A stretch of DNA of 64,000 nucleotides from Halosolutus gelatinilyticus (GTDB lineage Archaea > Halobacteriota > Halobacteria > Halobacteriales > Natrialbaceae): contig NZ_CP095491.1 of assembly GCF_023028105.1 (NCBI RefSeq), positions 3,658,001 through 3,722,000 on the forward strand, in the 5' to 3' direction. Within the stretch, counting starts at the first letter, position 1, and each line of letters starts with the position of its first letter. The position numbers and the translations under genes were made by a program. This document shows positions 25,556-35,191 of this stretch, one piece after another. The notes below the pieces were generated by a model. It saw nothing but the letters and a program-made list of their open reading frames with translations, searched no databases and was not told where the DNA came from.

Positions 25556-26605
25556 TCACTCCTCGCTCTCGTAGGGGTCGCCGACCGACGCCGGCATCTT
25601 CGTCCTGCCCCACGCGGTGAGCACGACGATCACGGCGGCGTAGGGCAACAGGTTGACTAGTTTCCCGGGGACGCCGATCCCAGCCGTCTGAAACTGGACG
25701 TTCAGCTGGTCGAGCGCCGCGAACAGCAGCGCCGCGGCGGCGGCGCCGATCGGGTTGTAGTTGCCGAAGAGATAGGCGACGATGGCGATCCAGCCGCGGC
25801 CGTCGGTCAGCGTATCGCCGCCGCCGTTGAAGGTGCCGAGGTGCGCGAGGAGGACTGCCCCGCCGAGCGCCGCCATCGCGCCGGAGAAGAGCACCGCGGC
25901 GTAGCGAACGCGGATGACGTCGACGCCGGCGGTGTCCAGCGCCTCCGGGTTTTCCCCGGCCGCCTGGATCCAGTAGCCGTAGCGGGTCCGGTAGAGGACC
26001 ACCCAGGCGACGACCGCGAACACCGCGGTGAGCAACACCAGCGGCGACTGATCGAAGAGGATCGGACCGACCCCGGGGAGGTCGGCGAGGTACGGAATCG
26101 TGAGCGTGTCGACGCTCGCGAGGCCGCTGTAGTTTCTGTCGTCCCAGACGAGGATCGCGACGAAGGGGGCAAATCCCAGGGCGACGAACCAGACAGCGAG
26201 TCCCGCCACGATCTGATCCGCCTCGTACCGGATCAGCAAGACGGCAAAGAGCATGGTCAGAACGAGGCCGACGACGACCGCGACGAGTATCGCGATCCAG
26301 ACGTGGCGCTGGGCGGGCGACGATCCGCCGACGGCGTACATCGCGGCGGCAGTCGTCAGCGCCCCGATTATCATGAACCCCTCGAGGCCGATGTTGAACA
26401 CGCCGCTCTTCTCGGCGTACAGGCCGCCGATCGCCGCGAGCGCGATCGGGGCCGCCATCTCGAGCGATCGGTTCACGAAGCCGATCGTGACGAGCCGACC
26501 CAGGTCGACGTCGGATTGCAGCACCAGCGCTGACGCGAGACCGACGACGATCGCGATCGCTCCGAGTCGGACGGGGATCCCATTCGCGTAGTCGCGGGCG
26601 CTCAC
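25556..26605 (-). CDS. Nucleoside-type ABC importer, permease 2
   Basis: A 349-residue membrane permease of the BPD_transp_2 family, related to NupQ/YufQ. About nine hydrophobic segments; GGLYAEKSGVFNIGLEGFMIIGA is the family signature region. The GTG start overlaps the TGA of permease 1 (GTGA). It is the last gene of the four-gene operon encoding lipoprotein, ATPase and two permeases. Confidence 0.9.
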   Translation of the reverse strand: MSARDYANGIPVRLGAIAIVVGLASALVLQSDVDLGRLVTIGFVNRSLEMAAPIALAAIGGLYAEKSGVFNIGLEGFMIIGALTTAAAMYAVGGSSPAQRHVWIAILVAVVVGLVLTMLFAVLLIRYEADQIVAGLAVWFVALGFAPFVAILVWDDRNYSGLASVDTLTIPYLADLPGVGPILFDQSPLVLLTAVFAVVAWVVLYRTRYGYWIQAAGENPEALDTAGVDVIRVRYAAVLFSGAMAALGGAVLLAHLGTFNGGGDTLTDGRGWIAIVAYLFGNYNPIGAAAAALLFAALDQLNVQFQTAGIGVPGKLVNLLPYAAVIVVLTAWGRTKMPASVGDPYESEE

Positions 26606-27735
26606 CGATCCTCACCCCCGATGCCGGCCCGTTTGGCCGCCATCCGGAACAGTTCCGGCGCCGCCACGAAGAGCACGACGAGCCCGATGATCCCGTCGAT
26701 CAACTGCACCGGAACGTCGCTGTTGAACTGGACGTGCGATCCCGCCGACTCGAGGCCGCCGAACAGCAGTCCCGCCGGGACGACCCCTACGGGGTTGTTC
26801 GCGGCGAGAAGACTGACGGCGATCGCGTCGAAGCCGTAGTTGCCGACGCCGCCCGGGTCGGTGTAGTGGCCCTGGATCATGACGGCGAACACGGCGCCGG
26901 CGAGTCCGGCGACCATCCCGGAGAACGTCATGGTCGCGACGACCGTTCGCCGCGCGTCGACGCCGGAGTACGTCGCCGCGGACCGTTGGTAGCCGCTCGT
27001 CACCATGTCGTAGCCGAACCGGGTTCGCGCGATGATCACGGCGACGACCGCCACGGTCGCCAACGTGACGACGAGGCCGACGATCGAGAAGTTCGGCTCG
27101 TCGAAGACGAGCCGCGGCAGGCTCACGTTCTCCGGGAGCCGTTCGGTCCGCGTCGAGGTCGCGTCTTCGGCGCCGAACCAGCCCTGGACGAGCCAGCCGA
27201 CGATGCCGATCGCGATGAAGTTCAGCATGATCGTGGTGATGATCTCGTTCGCCCCGCCGTACGCTTTGAGGACGCCGGGGAAGGCGGCGTAGAGGCCGCC
27301 CGCGGCGACGGCTGCGATGGTGCCGATCGTCAGTAGCGCGAGCCCGCCGATCGGCCCGTCGGGCAGGTGCGGCGCGAGCCAAACGATAGACATGACGCAG
27401 GCGATCCCGCCGACGATGAACTGCCCCTGGACGCCGATGTTGAAGACGCCGGCCCGGAACGCGACCGCCACCGCGACGCCGGTCAGGATGAACAGCGTCG
27501 AGAACCGCAGCGTCCGCGAGACGGCGGATTCGCTCCCGAACGCGCCGACGACCAGGTGGGTCGCGAACTGCGCCGGATCGTACCCCGCCGCGGCCACGAT
27601 CGCGAGTCCCAACAGCAGGGCCAGCGCCGTCGAGGCGATCGCGATCGCGATCCGTTCGAGGACCGTGGCCGCGAGCAGCCGATCGGCGGTCCGGTCGAGC
27701 ACCGCCCGAAGGCGTCCCGTCTCGACCCCGCTCAC
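26602..27735 (-). CDS. Nucleoside-type ABC importer, permease 1
   Basis: A 377-residue permease of the same family, NupP/YufP-like, with about nine hydrophobic segments and the signature FRAGVFNIGVQGQFIVGG. The start is the GTG at 27735, which overlaps the TGA of the ATPase gene (GTGA). In-frame sequence upstream of this GTG is Arg-rich and belongs to the shadow of the ATPase gene. It forms the membrane channel with permease 2. Confidence 0.9.
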   Translation of the reverse strand: MSGVETGRLRAVLDRTADRLLAATVLERIAIAIASTALALLLGLAIVAAAGYDPAQFATHLVVGAFGSESAVSRTLRFSTLFILTGVAVAVAFRAGVFNIGVQGQFIVGGIACVMSIVWLAPHLPDGPIGGLALLTIGTIAAVAAGGLYAAFPGVLKAYGGANEIITTIMLNFIAIGIVGWLVQGWFGAEDATSTRTERLPENVSLPRLVFDEPNFSIVGLVVTLATVAVVAVIIARTRFGYDMVTSGYQRSAATYSGVDARRTVVATMTFSGMVAGLAGAVFAVMIQGHYTDPGGVGNYGFDAIAVSLLAANNPVGVVPAGLLFGGLESAGSHVQFNSDVPVQLIDGIIGLVVLFVAAPELFRMAAKRAGIGGEDR

Positions 27736-29306
27736 GGCTGGACACCTCGGTTCGGATCGGCCGCGTCCGATTCGCCGTCGGGACGCTGGCCGGCCATCAG
27801 GAGGCCCAGTTCCTCGTCGGTCGCCGCCTCCGGGTCGACCGTGTCGACGAACTGGCCCTCGTACATGACCGCGATCCGATCGGCGAGCTTCCTGATCTCC
27901 TCCAGCTTGGACGAGACGACGACGATCGCCAGGCCGGCCTCGCGGAGTTCGAGCAGCCTGTTGTGGATGAACTCGATCGAGCCGATGTCGACCCCGCGGG
28001 TCGGGTGCGAGGCGATCATCGCCGCCGGGTCGTGCCCGATCTCCCGGCCGACGATGAACTTCTGTTGGTTGCCCCCGGACAGCGAGGACGCCGTCGCGTC
28101 GGGGTTCGGCGGCTGAACGTCGAACTCCGCGACGATCTCCTCGGCGTGATCGCGAACGGCTGCCCAATCGAGGAATCGTCCGTTCGCGTACGGGTCGATC
28201 GTCTGGTTGCCGAGCAGCGCGTTTCGGACCAGATCGTACTCCTGTACCAGCCCCTCGGTCTGGCGGTCCTCGGGAATGTAGGCGATGTCCGCCTCGAGCA
28301 GGTCGCGGCGGCTCGCATCGGTGACGTCCTCCCCGCGGAACGCGATCGTCCCCGACTCGACCGACCGGAGCCCGGTGAGCGCCTCGACCAGTTCCGACTG
28401 GCCGTTCCCCTGTACCCCGGCGATGCCCAGGATCTCGCTCGTTCGAACCGTCAGGTCGACGTCGCGCACCCGATCGAGCCCGCGATCGCCCTCGATACGG
28501 AGCCCCTCCGCCTCGAGAACCGGATCGCCGGGCGTCGCCTCCCGCGAGAGCCGATCGAACAGCACCTCGCGGCCGACCATCTGCCGCGCCAGTTCCTGCT
28601 CGGAGGTCGCGTCGGCGTCGACGGTCCCGACGGCCGCGCCGTCCCGGAGGACGGTGATCTCGTCCGCGGCCGCCAGCGCCTCGTCGAGTTTGTGCGTGAT
28701 GAAGACGAGCGATCGGCCGGCGTCCGCGAGGTCGCACATTACATCCAGCAGCCGATCGACCTCCTGGGGCGTGAGCACCGCCGTCGGCTCGTCGAGGATC
28801 AGCACCTCCGCGCCGCGGTAGAGGCTCTTGACGATCTCGACGCGCTGCTGGGCGCCGAGGTCGAGATCCTCGACCGGGGTCTCGAGATACCGATCGACGT
28901 CGAATCCGTACCGGGAGCAGATCGCTTCGATCTCGTCTCTTGCCGCCGCTTCGTCGACTAACCCGTTCTCCGTCGGCTCGTGACCGAGAACGACGTTCTG
29001 CAGGACGGTCATGGGCTTTACGAGCTGGAAGTGCTGGTGGATCATCCCGACGCCCGCGTCCATCGCGTCCCGCGGCGAGTCGAACGCCCGCGGTTCCCCG
29101 TCGACGTAGATCGTGCCCTCGTCCTGCTCGTACAGGCCGTAGAGGACGCTCATGAGGGTGGTCTTTCCCGATCCGTTCTCGCCGAGCAGCGCGTGGATCG
29201 TCCCCGTCTCCAGCGCGAAGTCGACGCTGTCGTTCGCGACGACATCGCCGAACCGCTTGGTGATCCCGTCGAGTCGGACGGCCGTCGGCGGATCAGTTGC
29301 AGTCAT
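27732..29306 (-). CDS. Nucleoside-type ABC importer, double ATPase subunit
   Basis: A 524-residue protein with two ABC domains, NupO/RbsA-like. The first has Walker A GENGSGKTT, a degenerate signature (LDLGAQQRVEIVKSL) and Walker B EVLILDEPTAVLT. The second has the atypical loop GVQGNGQSEL, as usual for this family, signature LSGGNQQK, and 'SHPTRGVD'. One site is therefore the main hydrolytic one. It follows the lipoprotein gene by 43 bases and overlaps permease 1. Confidence 0.92.
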   Translation of the reverse strand: MTATDPPTAVRLDGITKRFGDVVANDSVDFALETGTIHALLGENGSGKTTLMSVLYGLYEQDEGTIYVDGEPRAFDSPRDAMDAGVGMIHQHFQLVKPMTVLQNVVLGHEPTENGLVDEAAARDEIEAICSRYGFDVDRYLETPVEDLDLGAQQRVEIVKSLYRGAEVLILDEPTAVLTPQEVDRLLDVMCDLADAGRSLVFITHKLDEALAAADEITVLRDGAAVGTVDADATSEQELARQMVGREVLFDRLSREATPGDPVLEAEGLRIEGDRGLDRVRDVDLTVRTSEILGIAGVQGNGQSELVEALTGLRSVESGTIAFRGEDVTDASRRDLLEADIAYIPEDRQTEGLVQEYDLVRNALLGNQTIDPYANGRFLDWAAVRDHAEEIVAEFDVQPPNPDATASSLSGGNQQKFIVGREIGHDPAAMIASHPTRGVDIGSIEFIHNRLLELREAGLAIVVVSSKLEEIRKLADRIAVMYEGQFVDTVDPEAATDEELGLLMAGQRPDGESDAADPNRGVQP

Positions 29307-29349
29307 AACACCTCGTCGAGAATGTACTCATAGCTGTGAGGCGTGGGCG

Positions 29350-30480
29350 TTAGCAGCTCGTCGGGCCGCACGAGAGTTCGATCTCGTCGTTGGCGAACCC
29401 GTCTTTCGCCTCCTGGAGGTTCTCGTCGACGGCGTCCGGAAGGGCGCTCTCGAACGCCTGCCCGACGACAAAGTCGATCGCCCCCTGCTCGACGCTGAGG
29501 TTGTTCTCGCCGACGTAGTCGTCGAAGTTCCCCTCGGCGGCCGCCCCGGCGACCTCGTAGGTCGCTTCGTCGAGCGCCTTGACGGCTGAACCGATGATGA
29601 CGTCTTGGTATTGCTCCTCGGTCACCGACTGATCGGTGTCGACGCCGATCGCGAAGCGGCCGTTCTCCTCGGCGGCCGAGAAGACGCCCGTGCCGGCGGC
29701 CGACGCCGCGTGGTAGATGATGTCCGCACCGTCGTCGTACTGCGACGCGGCGACGTTCTCCGCCGCGCTCGAATCCTCGAAGCTCCCGCCGTAGCCGGTC
29801 AGCACCTCGACGTCGTCTGCGATCCACTCGGCGCCTTCGACGTAGGACTGTTCGAACGCGTTGATCAGCGGCATGTCCTCCCCGCCGACGAACCCGATCG
29901 TGCGCTCGCCGGGTTCCGTCTCGCTGCCCTCGTGTTCCAACTCTTCCTGGGTCATCGTTCCGGCCACGACGCCGGCCAGGAACGACATCTCGTTGTTCAT
30001 CTCGATCCACCCGGATACGTTGTCCGCACCCTCGATGCGGTCGTTGATGATCATCCAGTTCTGGTCCGGGTACTCCTCGGCGTTGACCTCCAGCGCGTCG
30101 ACGTGGTTGAACCCGACCACGACGATGAGGTCGTAGTCGCCGGAGTCGGCGAGACTCGCCTGCGTCGACTCGTACTCGGCCTCTTCCGTCTCCTGGACGT
30201 CGTTGACCGAAACGTCCCACTTCTCGGCCGCCCGCTGCAGGCCGGCGAGCGCGTTGTCGTTGAACGCGTTGTCGCCGAACCCGGCGGGGCTGGAGACGAT
30301 CGCGACGTTCGTCTCGGCGCCCCCCTCGTCGCCGTTTTCGCCCCCCAGACACCCGGCGATCGCCGTTCCGCCGGCGACGGTCGCACCCGCCGCCAGCACG
30401 GCCCGGCGACCGATCGAAGACGCGTCGCCAGCACCGTCCGATTCCCCAGCACCGTTCTCCGCATCCACTCTACGAGACAT
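29350..30480 (-). CDS. BMP-family substrate-binding lipoprotein
   Basis: A 376-residue PnrA/BmpA-like binding protein. IGRRAVLAAGATVAGG is a Tat signal and IAGC (Cys44) the lipid site. The body has the typical VAIVSSPAGFGDNAFND opening, and GFVGGEDMPLINAFEQSYVEGA and AASAAGTGVFSAAEENGRFAIGVDTD binding-site segments. Family members bind purine nucleosides or related compounds; the exact ligand is unknown. It is the first gene of the importer operon, with a TATA box at 30508-30513. Confidence 0.92.
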   Translation of the reverse strand: MSRRVDAENGAGESDGAGDASSIGRRAVLAAGATVAGGTAIAGCLGGENGDEGGAETNVAIVSSPAGFGDNAFNDNALAGLQRAAEKWDVSVNDVQETEEAEYESTQASLADSGDYDLIVVVGFNHVDALEVNAEEYPDQNWMIINDRIEGADNVSGWIEMNNEMSFLAGVVAGTMTQEELEHEGSETEPGERTIGFVGGEDMPLINAFEQSYVEGAEWIADDVEVLTGYGGSFEDSSAAENVAASQYDDGADIIYHAASAAGTGVFSAAEENGRFAIGVDTDQSVTEEQYQDVIIGSAVKALDEATYEVAGAAAEGNFDDYVGENNLSVEQGAIDFVVGQAFESALPDAVDENLQEAKDGFANDEIELSCGPTSC

Positions 30481-31180: not shown

Positions 31181-31819
31181 TTACCGGGGCCGCGCGACGA
31201 GACCCAGGTGATCGGCGTGGTAGTCGTCGAGTCTCCGATCCTCGAGCGGTTCGTACGCGTCGGCGAGTTCCTCGCGCACGTCGTCGAAGACGTCCGCCGG
31301 GTCGCGAGTCACGTCCTCGCTGCGGGCTTTCACGGCGAGGAGCAGTCGCCCGTCGTCTGCGAGGAACCGCGCGTTCTCGATCGCCACGCGGGCCTGCCCG
31401 CGCGTGGCGACGTCCTGGACGACGACGTCCACGTCCGATTCGACGACGTGCGCGTAGGTCTCGGGCTTGCGAGCGTCCTTGAGCAGCGGGAACAGCCGCG
31501 GCCGCGACTCGGCGGCCGAGAGCAGGTCGCGGGCCGGTCGCGGGGCGAACTCGATCGCGTAGGTCGGCCCGGCGAAGTCGGCGACGTGGCTCACCGTCGT
31601 CCCGCTGGCGGCGCCGAGGTAGAGTACCGTCTCGCCGCCCTCGAGTCCGGTATCCATGCCGAGGGCGAGCATCGCGCCGAGTTTCGATCGGTTCGGGTTC
31701 CAGGCGCGCCACTCGCCGTCCGTGGGTTCGCCGTAGACCGGCTCGCCCCGCGTTGCGAGTCGCGTCGTCCCGTCGAACTCGCGGCGACCGACGCCGTCGG
31801 GAAGCGCGTCCTCACGCAT
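31181..31819 (-). CDS. flpA: Fibrillarin-like rRNA/tRNA 2'-O-methyltransferase
   Basis: A 212-residue SAM-dependent methyltransferase. TVLYLGAASGTTVSHVAD is the SAM-binding motif and VDVVVQDVATRGQ and LLLAVKARSED follow in order. With Nop5 and L7Ae it methylates ribose at sites chosen by C/D box RNAs. The ATG at 31819 overlaps the nop5 stop by eight bases, and GGAGGTG lies seven bases before it; the alternative GTG nine bases earlier lacks such a site. The nop5-flpA order is standard in archaea. Confidence 0.95.
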   Translation of the reverse strand: MREDALPDGVGRREFDGTTRLATRGEPVYGEPTDGEWRAWNPNRSKLGAMLALGMDTGLEGGETVLYLGAASGTTVSHVADFAGPTYAIEFAPRPARDLLSAAESRPRLFPLLKDARKPETYAHVVESDVDVVVQDVATRGQARVAIENARFLADDGRLLLAVKARSEDVTRDPADVFDDVREELADAYEPLEDRRLDDYHADHLGLVARPR

Positions 31820-32681
31820 CGCCGTCACCTCCCTCGTCGACCGTCCGGGCCTGGATCGTCTCGATGCGATCGGCCAGATCGGCCTCGAGTTCCGGATTCA
31901 GGTCGCCCGAGTAGTGGTCGATCCGGGCGGCGATCGCGAGTTTTCCGGCGACCGCGCGTGCGGCCGAACCCCGGTTCTCGGGGTGAGTGCCACGGACCGC
32001 GTCGTGCGTGTAGATGATCCCGTGTTTCGGCGACGGTGCGTGCCCCCGAAGGTGGGCGAACAGCGCGTCTTCCGCGCCGAGGACCTGAATCGTCCCGCTG
32101 GGCTTCTTCGCGAGGGGCTCCAGTCCGCCGGCGAGCGAGAGCAGCCGGGCGGCCAGGATCGGCCCCGCGAGCGCCGAGAGGTTGGGGGCGACCGCCGGCG
32201 TTCGTCGCTCGACGAACTCGCGCAGCTCGTCGGCCTCGTCCGCGAGCGCGACGACGCGATCGGCCAGCGATCGGACGGTCGCCGCGTCCCGGAGCTCTCG
32301 CTCCCCGGCGGCGATCTCGCGCGCGTACTCGATCCCCGTTCCGGCCTCGGGATCGATCGTCCCCGCCCACTCGGTCAGTCGCTCGGCGAGTTCGTTCGCC
32401 GTTCGCGTGCAGTCGTCCATCGCCCGGATCGCGTGGACCAGCTGGCGATCGTCCGCGCGTTCGCGCTCCTCGACGACCGATCGGGTCGCGGCCAGCGCGG
32501 CCTCGTGGAGTCGATCGTAGTAGTCGTCCTCGTCCGCCGCGAACCCGGTGTCGACGGCCGCGTCGGGCCACGATCGCGGTTCGGCGGTGCGTCCGTCGCG
32601 AATCCGGGCCGTCACCGTCTCGAGGTCGTCGGGATCGACGCCGTCGAACCAGCCCGCGGACGCGGGACGGTCTTCGTTCAT
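31812..32681 (-). CDS. nop5: Nop5/Nop56-Nop58 C/D box RNP core protein
   Basis: A 289-residue scaffold protein, short in its N-terminal domain as in other haloarchaea. A coiled coil spans about residues 85-165. The Nop domain signature is present: AGPILAARLLSLAGGLEPLAKKPSG in outline, then GAEDALFAHLRGHAPSPKHG. It bridges fibrillarin to the L7Ae-bound guide RNA. It overlaps flpA. A TATA box at about 32705-32713 precedes it by about 28 bases. Confidence 0.95.
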   Translation of the reverse strand: MNEDRPASAGWFDGVDPDDLETVTARIRDGRTAEPRSWPDAAVDTGFAADEDDYYDRLHEAALAATRSVVEERERADDRQLVHAIRAMDDCTRTANELAERLTEWAGTIDPEAGTGIEYAREIAAGERELRDAATVRSLADRVVALADEADELREFVERRTPAVAPNLSALAGPILAARLLSLAGGLEPLAKKPSGTIQVLGAEDALFAHLRGHAPSPKHGIIYTHDAVRGTHPENRGSAARAVAGKLAIAARIDHYSGDLNPELEADLADRIETIQARTVDEGGDGDA

Positions 32682-32800: not shown

Positions 32801-34015
32801 TTACTGCGCTTCGGCGGCCGACTCGTTGGCCGCGCTCTCGTTCTCTTGGGCCGCGCCGTTCGCGTTCACCTGCTCGTCCTCTTGGACGGCGGTCTCGACC
32901 GACTCGTTCTCCGCGACGGATTCGTTTTCGTCGCTACCGACGGACGCGGAGTCGTTCTCGGAGGCGTTCGATTCGTCGTCGGCCTGCGCTTCGTCAGATT
33001 CGTTGTCTGCCGCGGTATCGGCGGCGTCGTCCGTCGGCGTTTCGTTGGACTCGTCGTCCGCCGGCGCCTCGATCGGTTCGACGTCCTCATCGGCGGCCTG
33101 GGTCTGGTCGGCGATCGCTTCGGCCGCCCCCGTCCCGGGTGCGAGCACGTAGATCGTCGCCCGTTCGATCGAGATCGTCAGGTCGGCGTCGCTCGTGTTC
33201 GCGTCGCTCTCGTTCGTCGCGTCATCCGCGGCAACGCCGGTTTCGGCCGCGTCAGAGACTGCTCCGGTGGGGTTGCCGGGGAGGACGAAAATCGTCGCCC
33301 GTTCGATCGTCACGTGGAACGAGTGGTCGTCGGACGCCTCGTCCTCGCTGGCGGACTCGTTTTCGTCGGCCGCGGATTCGTTCTCGTCGACCGCGGTCTC
33401 GTTGTCGTCGGCGACGGATCCGGTCTCCGCCGCGACGGACTCGCTTCCCATTGCGACGGCCTCGCCGGCGAGCGCCGAGAGGCTACCCTGGTCTTCCAGC
33501 GTGACGACGATCGTCGCCTCCTCGATCGTCACCTCGGTCGGTCCGTCCCCTTCCGCGGGGAGGTCGCCGGCGTCTTCGAGGAGCACGGCGATCGCCGCGT
33601 CCTCGACGGAGAGTTCGGGGACGCCGCCCTCGGTCGCGGGATCGAACTGGGCGTTCGCGATCGCGGACTCGTCGACGGTCACGAAGACGGTCGCCTGGTC
33701 GATCGTCGCGTTGTCGGCGTCGGTTTCGTTTTCGTTGGCCGACGAGTCGGTCGCGTTGTCGGCGCTCTCGTTGTCCGCCGCGTCGGACTCGTCGGTCGCG
33801 CCGGCGTCGTCATCGGAGACCGGCTCGACGGAGACGATTTCGGCCTCCTCGATCGTAACGGAGACCGAGACGTTTTCGTGGACCGCGAGGGCGTCCTGAG
33901 ATAGTTCCGCGTCTGTACCCGCACCTGCCGTCGGCGGTGCTGCTGCCATCGCGCCCGTCGATACGACGAGCATCAGAACGGCGATAATAGTAGCGAAATG
34001 TTTTACTTCGATCAT
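32801..34015 (-). CDS. Secreted Asn/Glu/Ser-rich protein with six short beta repeats
   Basis: A 404-residue protein with an N-terminal signal (hydrophobic 8-26, ending AMAAAPP). The mature part alternates long low-complexity acidic linkers, full of NES and NAT sequons, with six copies of a short motif of the form V-T-I-E-x-A-x-I-x-V: VTIEEAEIV, ATIDQATVFV, LSVEDAAIAV, VTIEEATIVV, VTIERATIFV, ISIERATIYV. There is no C-terminal anchor, so it may be released or glycosylated and surface-bound. It stands alone. I know of no family; coding status is secure from composition and signal. Confidence 0.8.
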   Translation of the reverse strand: MIEVKHFATIIAVLMLVVSTGAMAAAPPTAGAGTDAELSQDALAVHENVSVSVTIEEAEIVSVEPVSDDDAGATDESDAADNESADNATDSSANENETDADNATIDQATVFVTVDESAIANAQFDPATEGGVPELSVEDAAIAVLLEDAGDLPAEGDGPTEVTIEEATIVVTLEDQGSLSALAGEAVAMGSESVAAETGSVADDNETAVDENESAADENESASEDEASDDHSFHVTIERATIFVLPGNPTGAVSDAAETGVAADDATNESDANTSDADLTISIERATIYVLAPGTGAAEAIADQTQAADEDVEPIEAPADDESNETPTDDAADTAADNESDEAQADDESNASENDSASVGSDENESVAENESVETAVQEDEQVNANGAAQENESAANESAAEAQ

Positions 34016-34507: not shown

Positions 34508-35191
34508 TCACTTGTTCGGGGAGACGATCTCGTCTAAGTTCTCGATCGTGACGTCGTGACCTGCGCTCTCGCCGGGGAGGATGTCGCCCAGCGCGGCGCC
34601 GATCGCGCCCGCCGTCCAGACGACCGTGATCCGGGCGAACGCCTCCAGGGGCGACGGGTCGTCGACGGCGAGTCGACCCCACGTCGCCAGCAGGACCGCC
34701 GCCGTCAGAAACGAAATCGCCAGCACGCCGATCAGCCGACGGGGAACAACGCCGAAGAGCGGGTTCGTCACGTTCACCTCGCGGATGTCGGTCCAGTAGA
34801 GGAGCCCAGTCGTCAACACGACGACGAAGGCGACGTTCCCGACGAGGTAGATCGGAATCCCCGCTCGGGTCGTCCCGACGAAGTGGTCCGCGATCACGAA
34901 GACGCCGTCCTCGACGAGCAGCGGGAGCGCGAGCAGGATGGTTCCGACGAACGCTTCGGCCATGTCTCGGGCCGTGTACTTCCTGATCCCGCGCCCGACC
35001 GCGTCCAACCCCGGAATCCGGCGAGCGACCGCCATCGTCTCCCGAACCTGCTCGCGCTCGTCCGGGTGGTCGACGAGCTCCTCGAGCTGTTCGAGCCGAT
35101 CGAGCAGCTGGTCGACGTCCGGCTCCGACGGGATCTCCGCGGGCGCCGGTCCGCCAGAGTCGGGCGGGGAATCGAGATCGGGATTCGACAT
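34508..35191 (-). CDS. DUF2391/TIGR02587-like membrane protein
   Basis: A 227-residue protein. Residues 1-75 are acidic and partly helical (DVDQLLDRLEQLEELVDHPDE); then RKYTARDMAEAFVGTILLALPLLVEDG starts the membrane domain with about four or five hydrophobic segments. This order matches the DUF2391 group of predicted membrane proteins. The role is unknown. It follows the DUF63 gene on the same strand by 93 bases. Confidence 0.75.
   Translation of the reverse strand: MSNPDLDSPPDSGGPAPAEIPSEPDVDQLLDRLEQLEELVDHPDEREQVRETMAVARRIPGLDAVGRGIRKYTARDMAEAFVGTILLALPLLVEDGVFVIADHFVGTTRAGIPIYLVGNVAFVVVLTTGLLYWTDIREVNVTNPLFGVVPRRLIGVLAISFLTAAVLLATWGRLAVDDPSPLEAFARITVVWTAGAIGAALGDILPGESAGHDVTIENLDEIVSPNK

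Follow-up and report, generated by a model that had tools for sequence, protein, structure and literature searches.

A family of predicted secreted haloarchaeal proteins with short conserved repeats and variable linkers

Among the described systems that lie closest to the proteins reported here, FapC, a functional amyloid of Pseudomonas, carries three imperfect repeats, each forming one cross-beta layer, with linkers of about 30-260 residues (PMC12392863). CsgA is presented in that article as having essentially its whole sequence in the solenoid, without long linkers (PMC12392863). For the haloarchaea, the account in PMC4378361 describes halomucin of Haloquadratum as a protein of 9,159 aa that is predicted to be exported and has been proposed to hold water around the cells, and putative amyloid staining has been reported in Haloferax volcanii biofilms (PMC4180959).

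Here we describe a gene in the window, by which we mean the whole 64-kb stretch of Halosolutus gelatinilyticus DNA that was analyzed, together with the protein family to which its product belongs. The repeats of this family are conserved, usually number five or six per chain, and are almost free of indels between close relatives, and the linkers between them vary. We think that the family probably helps to build or coat the outer surface of the cell. The features of the gene and its immediate neighbors are collected in Table 1.

Table 1. Coordinates of the repeat-protein gene, the parts of its product, and the adjacent genes in the window.
Feature	Position	Strand	Basis
Repeat-protein gene	32801..34015	-	ORF, 404 aa from ATG; family members in 64/125 genomes by repeat profile
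Signal-peptide-like N terminus, residues 1-25	33941..34015	-	Inspection; similar M[NS]xRNxLLVVxxALMxxSSGA starts in relatives
Repeat 1, VSVSVTIEEAEIVSVEPVSD	33812..33871	-	Matrix 11.5; AF2 strands 50-55 and 58-62
Repeat 2, DADNATIDQATVFVTVDESA	33662..33721	-	Matrix 22.4; AF2 strand 103-115
Repeat 3, GVPELSVEDAAIAVLLEDAG	33566..33625	-	Matrix 12.3; AF2 strands 134-137 and 140-145
Repeat 4, GPTEVTIEEATIVVTLEDQG	33485..33544	-	Matrix 27.7; AF2 strand 160-174
Repeat 5, HSFHVTIERATIFVLPGNPT	33266..33325	-	Matrix 37.9; AF2 strands 232-237 and 240-245
Repeat 6, ADLTISIERATIYVLAPGTG	33128..33187	-	Matrix 32.8; AF2 strand 279-291
C-terminal low-complexity tail, NES/NET-rich, no repeat	32804..33127	-	Sequence; AF2 shows no strand beyond residue 291
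nop5 (Pfam Nop), downstream neighbor outside the system; fibrillarin next	31812..32681	-	Pfam
Predicted membrane-protein gene, upstream neighbor	34508..35191	-	Pfam scan, no hit

A preliminary description had proposed six repeats in a secreted protein, and the open reading frame and its repeats proved to be real. A matrix built from 281 repeats in 55 other proteins, to which the window protein did not contribute, recovers all six, which start at residues 49, 99, 131, 158, 231, and 277 in a 20-residue frame; those training proteins had been picked by the motif itself. Among 2,000 shuffles of the window protein minus its first 30 residues, none gave six hits, the 99th percentile of the best score was 5.9, and the single highest score was 18.0. 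Repeats 1 and 3 are weak when taken singly. Across all six frames of the 64-kb window, only two further single sites reach a matrix score of 10. The 10-residue unit V-T-I-E-x-A-x-I-x-V that had been put forward does recur, but the conserved unit is longer, at about 14-16 residues.

The N terminus of the window protein, a hydrophobic stretch FATIIAVLMLVVSTGAMA followed by AAAPP, reads by inspection as a Sec signal peptide, so that secretion and location are predicted, and no anchor was seen on inspection of the protein. Its inter-repeat linkers are 9-55 residues long, its tail comprises about 110 residues, and the linkers are rich in Ala, Asp, Glu, and Ser (A 23%, D 15%, E 15%, S 11%). There are 18 N-x-S/T sites, compared with 3.9 expected from composition; half of them (9/18) are NES and a single one lies inside a repeat, in agreement with the acidic, sequon-rich linkers described earlier. 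The window copy lacks cysteine. It shares with its relatives several repeats that match the matrix (here six) and, judged by inspection and composition, a signal-peptide-like start and acidic low-complexity linkers.

A profile search with the repeat, suggested in the preliminary description, defined the distribution of the family. The profile of 24 columns, built from 50 repeats, matches 64 of the 125 genomes of the host's taxonomic family at E<=0.01; these represent 22 of the 29 genera. In a class-wide draw, 49 of 391 genomes match at E<=1e-4, and all 49 fall within one family, which we take to be the Natrialbaceae. Named matches include Natrialba, Natronococcus, Natronorubrum, Natrarchaeobius, and Natronolimnohabitans, all of them genera of the Natrialbaceae. 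A DNA pattern for T-I-E-x-A-T-I-x-V matched 34/125 genomes of the host's family and the reversed control pattern 0/125; a repeat protein or a remnant of one is present in 29 of the 34 pattern-positive genomes. The matches in G098, G099, G100, G113, and G124 are chance matches whose site lies in other proteins, and in further pattern searches three bacterial matches (L096, L099, and L103) contained no repeat protein according to the matrix and one of 23 matches (G100) was also due to chance. Searching 61 genomes with the whole protein returned, besides itself, only G016 and a weak match in an unrelated protein (G024), presumably because the linkers drift, and whole-protein search is a poor tool for this repeat family. 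Plasmid records held nothing matching one relative (L065).

For comparative analysis, we assembled a set of 56 proteins from 53 genomes. This set omits ten profile-positive genomes (G002, G009, G015, G024, G029, G075, G103, G123, G135, and G139) as well as G082, and it includes two proteins cut by a locus or contig end and one split at an unread base (L046/L098). In G082, a single repeat is found in an open frame of 91 aa (L041:7808-8080), and this copy looks broken.

The family had been described as matching no known one, with a known-domain match named as a finding that would speak against this, and the searches bear the claim out. The window protein has no Pfam match at E<=1 and no NCBIfam match, Pfam gave no match over the repeats in 12 scanned relatives, and NCBIfam gave none in 5 relatives. 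A search for solved relatives by sequence yielded only one 9-residue chance match (E 0.26). In the literature searched, no paper named DUF7282 or printed VTIEQATI, and no title or abstract opening described such a repeat family. The family is thus new to Pfam, NCBIfam, and the literature searched. Of the 12 scanned relatives, 8 carry DUF7282 (PF23951), located either N-terminal or C-terminal to the repeats, and three of these eight also have a CARDB match, one of them just under the cut-off; PF23951 does not match the window protein. A common origin of the repeat and the DUF7282 hairpin (VVVDEVTLxxGGFVxIHD), which look alike by eye, was not supported (hhalign probability 0.4%).

The consensus of the 281 repeats is xLxVTIEQATIFVVxED. 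Conservation of the polar columns roughly equals that of the hydrophobic ones (T6 76%, E8 71%, Q9 59%, A10 89%, and T11 81%). Six repeats were detected in 28 of the 56 proteins, five in 18, four in 1, three in 7, and two in 2. These counts rule out a strict rule of always six; in some five-repeat proteins a sixth repeat escapes the matrix, such as VTIEVTLEMAEFVSLDAVDE of L049, found by eye. Repeats within one protein are no more alike (identity 0.489, n=600 pairs) than repeats from different proteins (0.487, n=1035 random pairs), which suggests that they are kept alike by constraint and not by recent copying. Near-identical repeats do occur inside single proteins (repeats 4-6 of L065, 4-5 of L062, and 2, 4, and 6 of L059) and indicate recent duplications there, with totals that are still five or six.

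In alignments of 17 pairs of relatives, gaps lie mainly in the linkers. The repeat cores contain 0-4 gaps in 14 pairs and 14, 35, and 46 in the others, the last two being distant pairs, versus 53-336 gaps in the linkers, where "linker" takes in the DUF7282 and CARDB domains if present. Repeat dN/dS, estimated from 45-90 codons per pair, lies at 0.00-0.23 for eight of the 11 pairs; the remaining three give 0.31, 0.62, and 0.86. Among 20 non-redundant six-repeat proteins, repeats that share an ordinal position resemble one another slightly more than others do (+0.036 identity), a value reached in 0/200 shuffles. Of the 46 proteins that have five or six repeats, 39 contain exactly one variant repeat with a polar residue at column 14, under a criterion (no V, A, I, or L at column 14) that was picked after viewing the data and that mislabels some repeats, for example in L196, L197, L050, L054, and L189. 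The variant is usually the second repeat; the window protein has it as its first repeat, and six Natronococcus-type copies have it as their fourth. One variant per protein hints at a defined place in a fold.

Linkers across the family are 3-206 residues long, with a median of 58, and in the first 29 proteins they consist of 27% D and 20% E. They are either polyacidic or, as in the window copy, rich in N-x-S/T. Sequons are unevenly distributed: 23 of the 56 proteins, including the window protein, lie far above composition (z>3), with z-scores inflated where linkers are tandem copies, since shuffling breaks the tandem structure, and 21 have no sequon at all. Glycosylation is therefore not the shared trait and is ruled out as the defining function of the family. 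The host genome contains an oligosaccharyltransferase gene of the STT3 family (PF02516 match over the cut-off). With this gene in the genome and an excess of sequons, the window protein is a putative N-glycoprotein, and the glycosylated polymer suggested in the preliminary description is possible for this copy but does not extend to the sequon-free relatives. A final cysteine occurs in 12 of the 56 proteins (L039, L049, L051, L052, L055-L059, L062, L173, and L188).

Structure prediction of the repeats, also suggested earlier, was carried out with AlphaFold (AF2) using ten sequences, on a short-linker relative and on the window protein. Both models place a strand at each of six repeats, but confidence is low (mean pLDDT 41.3 and 47.3; pTM 0.31 and 0.34). 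Some repeats are drawn as two strands split near E-x and others as one continuous strand. The L3-V5-I7 / A10-I12-V14 pattern would fit a beta-arch, a bulged strand, and a hairpin alike. Foldseek comparison of both low-confidence models with the PDB returned no match at E<=0.001.

The genomic setting of the window gene differs from that of its relatives. By Pfam, its neighbors encode Nop5, fibrillarin, a Bmp-type ABC binding protein, and DUF63, and no assembly or export partner was found beside it among the neighbors checked in Pfam. An ordinary ABC transporter operon with a Bmp/PnrA-type binding protein occupies 26602-30480 (binding protein by Pfam, the rest by reading). Within about 1.5 kb on either side of nop5, the repeat gene is absent from 29 other genomes and from G001, which is of the same genus (0/30 in total). 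In L116 and L120, which lack the repeat gene, the membrane gene lies directly beside nop5 with about 70 bases between them, so the repeat gene was most simply gained in the window. The window gene is most simply a lineage-specific second copy beside nop5. The host genome encodes another family member of 454 aa (L173:4988-6352; G000:C1:3329687-3331051) between the PEPCK and CutA/L11 genes. This is a conserved site, and G001 and eight loci of genus g3 (Natronococcus-type) have the same order PEPCK-repeat gene-CutA-L11. A different arrangement is seen in 13 of 29 loci, where the gene immediately upstream of the repeat gene, in the same orientation, belongs to a single cluster, with genes called by a purpose-made composition score and neighbor names partly based on Pfam. 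The representative of this cluster (L065:9287-9754) carries a DUF7343 domain, and its product reads as membrane-anchored. Loci of this type have DUF7344, PadR, HTH, and DUF1616 genes on the other side of the repeat gene.

Our leading explanation, held tentatively and at somewhat less than even probability, is a surface or matrix protein whose repeats stack as rungs at the cell surface and whose linkers form a brush that is charged or glycosylated. Each repeat would be a strand-forming rung (xLxVTI / EQ / ATIFVV), and rungs would stack within a chain and possibly between chains, keeping like residues in register (columns 6 and 8-11: T, E, Q, A, and T). Looped out between the rungs, the linkers would form a hydrated brush, either polyanionic or N-glycosylated; multimolar salt would screen their charge so that the rungs can meet, and the outcome would be a matrix fiber or a coat on the cell surface. 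Stacking strands had already been proposed in the preliminary description, and the conserved units, indel-tolerant linkers, and AF2 strands are compatible with them. Several observations count against stacking rungs: three pairs have repeat dN/dS values that are not low, the ordinal signal is small, the number of repeats is not fixed, and in the pair formed by the window protein and L065 there are 46 gaps in repeats versus 53 in linkers. The low AF2 confidence, the lack of a PDB match, and the lack of an assembly or export partner among the neighbors checked in Pfam also count against them, as does the lack in these repeats of the Asn/Gln/Gly wealth of CsgA and FapC. A more specific proposal, which we regard as doubtful, is a halophile-specific archaeal fiber whose VTIEQATI rungs, without relation to curli or Fap repeats, would form a cross-beta or beta-arch ladder only in multimolar salt, with linkers that change between polyanionic and N-glycan forms by lineage.

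In a less likely alternative, the repeats of a single chain fold together as a closed or sandwich beta domain with very long disordered loops, yielding a monomeric surface protein. In its favor are six being the commonest repeat count (28/56), the ordinal signal, and the single column-14 variant, which looks like a fold position. Against it, some proteins have 5, 3, or 2 detected repeats, linkers as long as 206 residues would be unusual between strands, and AF2 finds no confident fold. It is improbable that the repeats are instead short binding motifs, each docking as an extra strand onto a partner, such as an S-layer or other surface protein, and so form a multivalent tether. Short, spaced, residue-specific motifs in a disordered context and the fusion of DUF7282 and CARDB domains in some members are consistent with this, but there is no constant partner gene and neighbors differ between locus types. 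We assign a similarly low probability to a halomucin-like hydration polymer in which acidic or glycosylated linkers do the work and the repeats merely space them. The family-wide acidity of the linkers, the sequon-rich members, the window protein among them, and the STT3 gene point in this direction, but the conserved part is the repeats and not the linkers, 21 of 56 members are free of sequons, and the sequon scores are inflated in tandem linkers. Finally, the window copy could be a decaying duplicate without function: none of 30 other genomes has this additional copy beside nop5, two of its repeats score among the lowest, and a relative (G082) has a broken copy. The open 404-aa frame, intact signal-like start, and retention of all six repeats make this very improbable.

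If the repeats stack, the family provides a defined candidate structural protein of the haloarchaeal surface or matrix, and if the fiber proposal is true, it would be an archaeal coat or matrix protein that is defined by sequence and follows an assembly rule of its own. The family also offers a natural experiment across genera including Natrialba, Natronococcus, and Natronorubrum, in which the same strand motif is held and the linkers differ in length, in charge, and in their glycosylation sites. From it one could learn how dependence on salt is built into a repeat protein.

Compared with known systems, the window protein resembles halomucin by description only, both being predicted exported haloarchaeal proteins. 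Parallel beta-helix (pectate-lyase-like) proteins, a fold assigned by eye, gave a chance pattern match (FTIEDATIAV in L016, L017, and L019); unlike them, the window protein has no tandem coils, its repeats are separated by linkers, and it has no Pfam match. Like CsgA, the window protein has short repeats whose corresponding columns hold similar residues, an arrangement compatible with like-residue ladders; no curlin repeat match was found in the window protein in Pfam at E<=1. The likeness to FapC is one of layout, with few imperfect strand-forming repeats of fixed length and very variable linkers in a protein that is secreted, by prediction for the window protein; in FapC the repeats stack as layers. 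The FapC repeat has 35-40 residues and is Asn/Gln/Gly-based, whereas that of the window family has about 14-16 and is V/T/I/E/A-based, and FapC has three repeats where the window family usually has five or six and strongly acidic linkers. The consensus xLxVTIEQATIFVV is not the Fap repeat motif, the window protein has no Pfam match at E<=1, and no fap operon partners occur among the neighbors checked in Pfam. Motif, composition, and gene neighbors all differ, and a FapC-like layout is not membership in Fap. Repeats with variable disordered linkers are, as a kind, a variant of something known, and by analogy FapC shows that such a layout can work.
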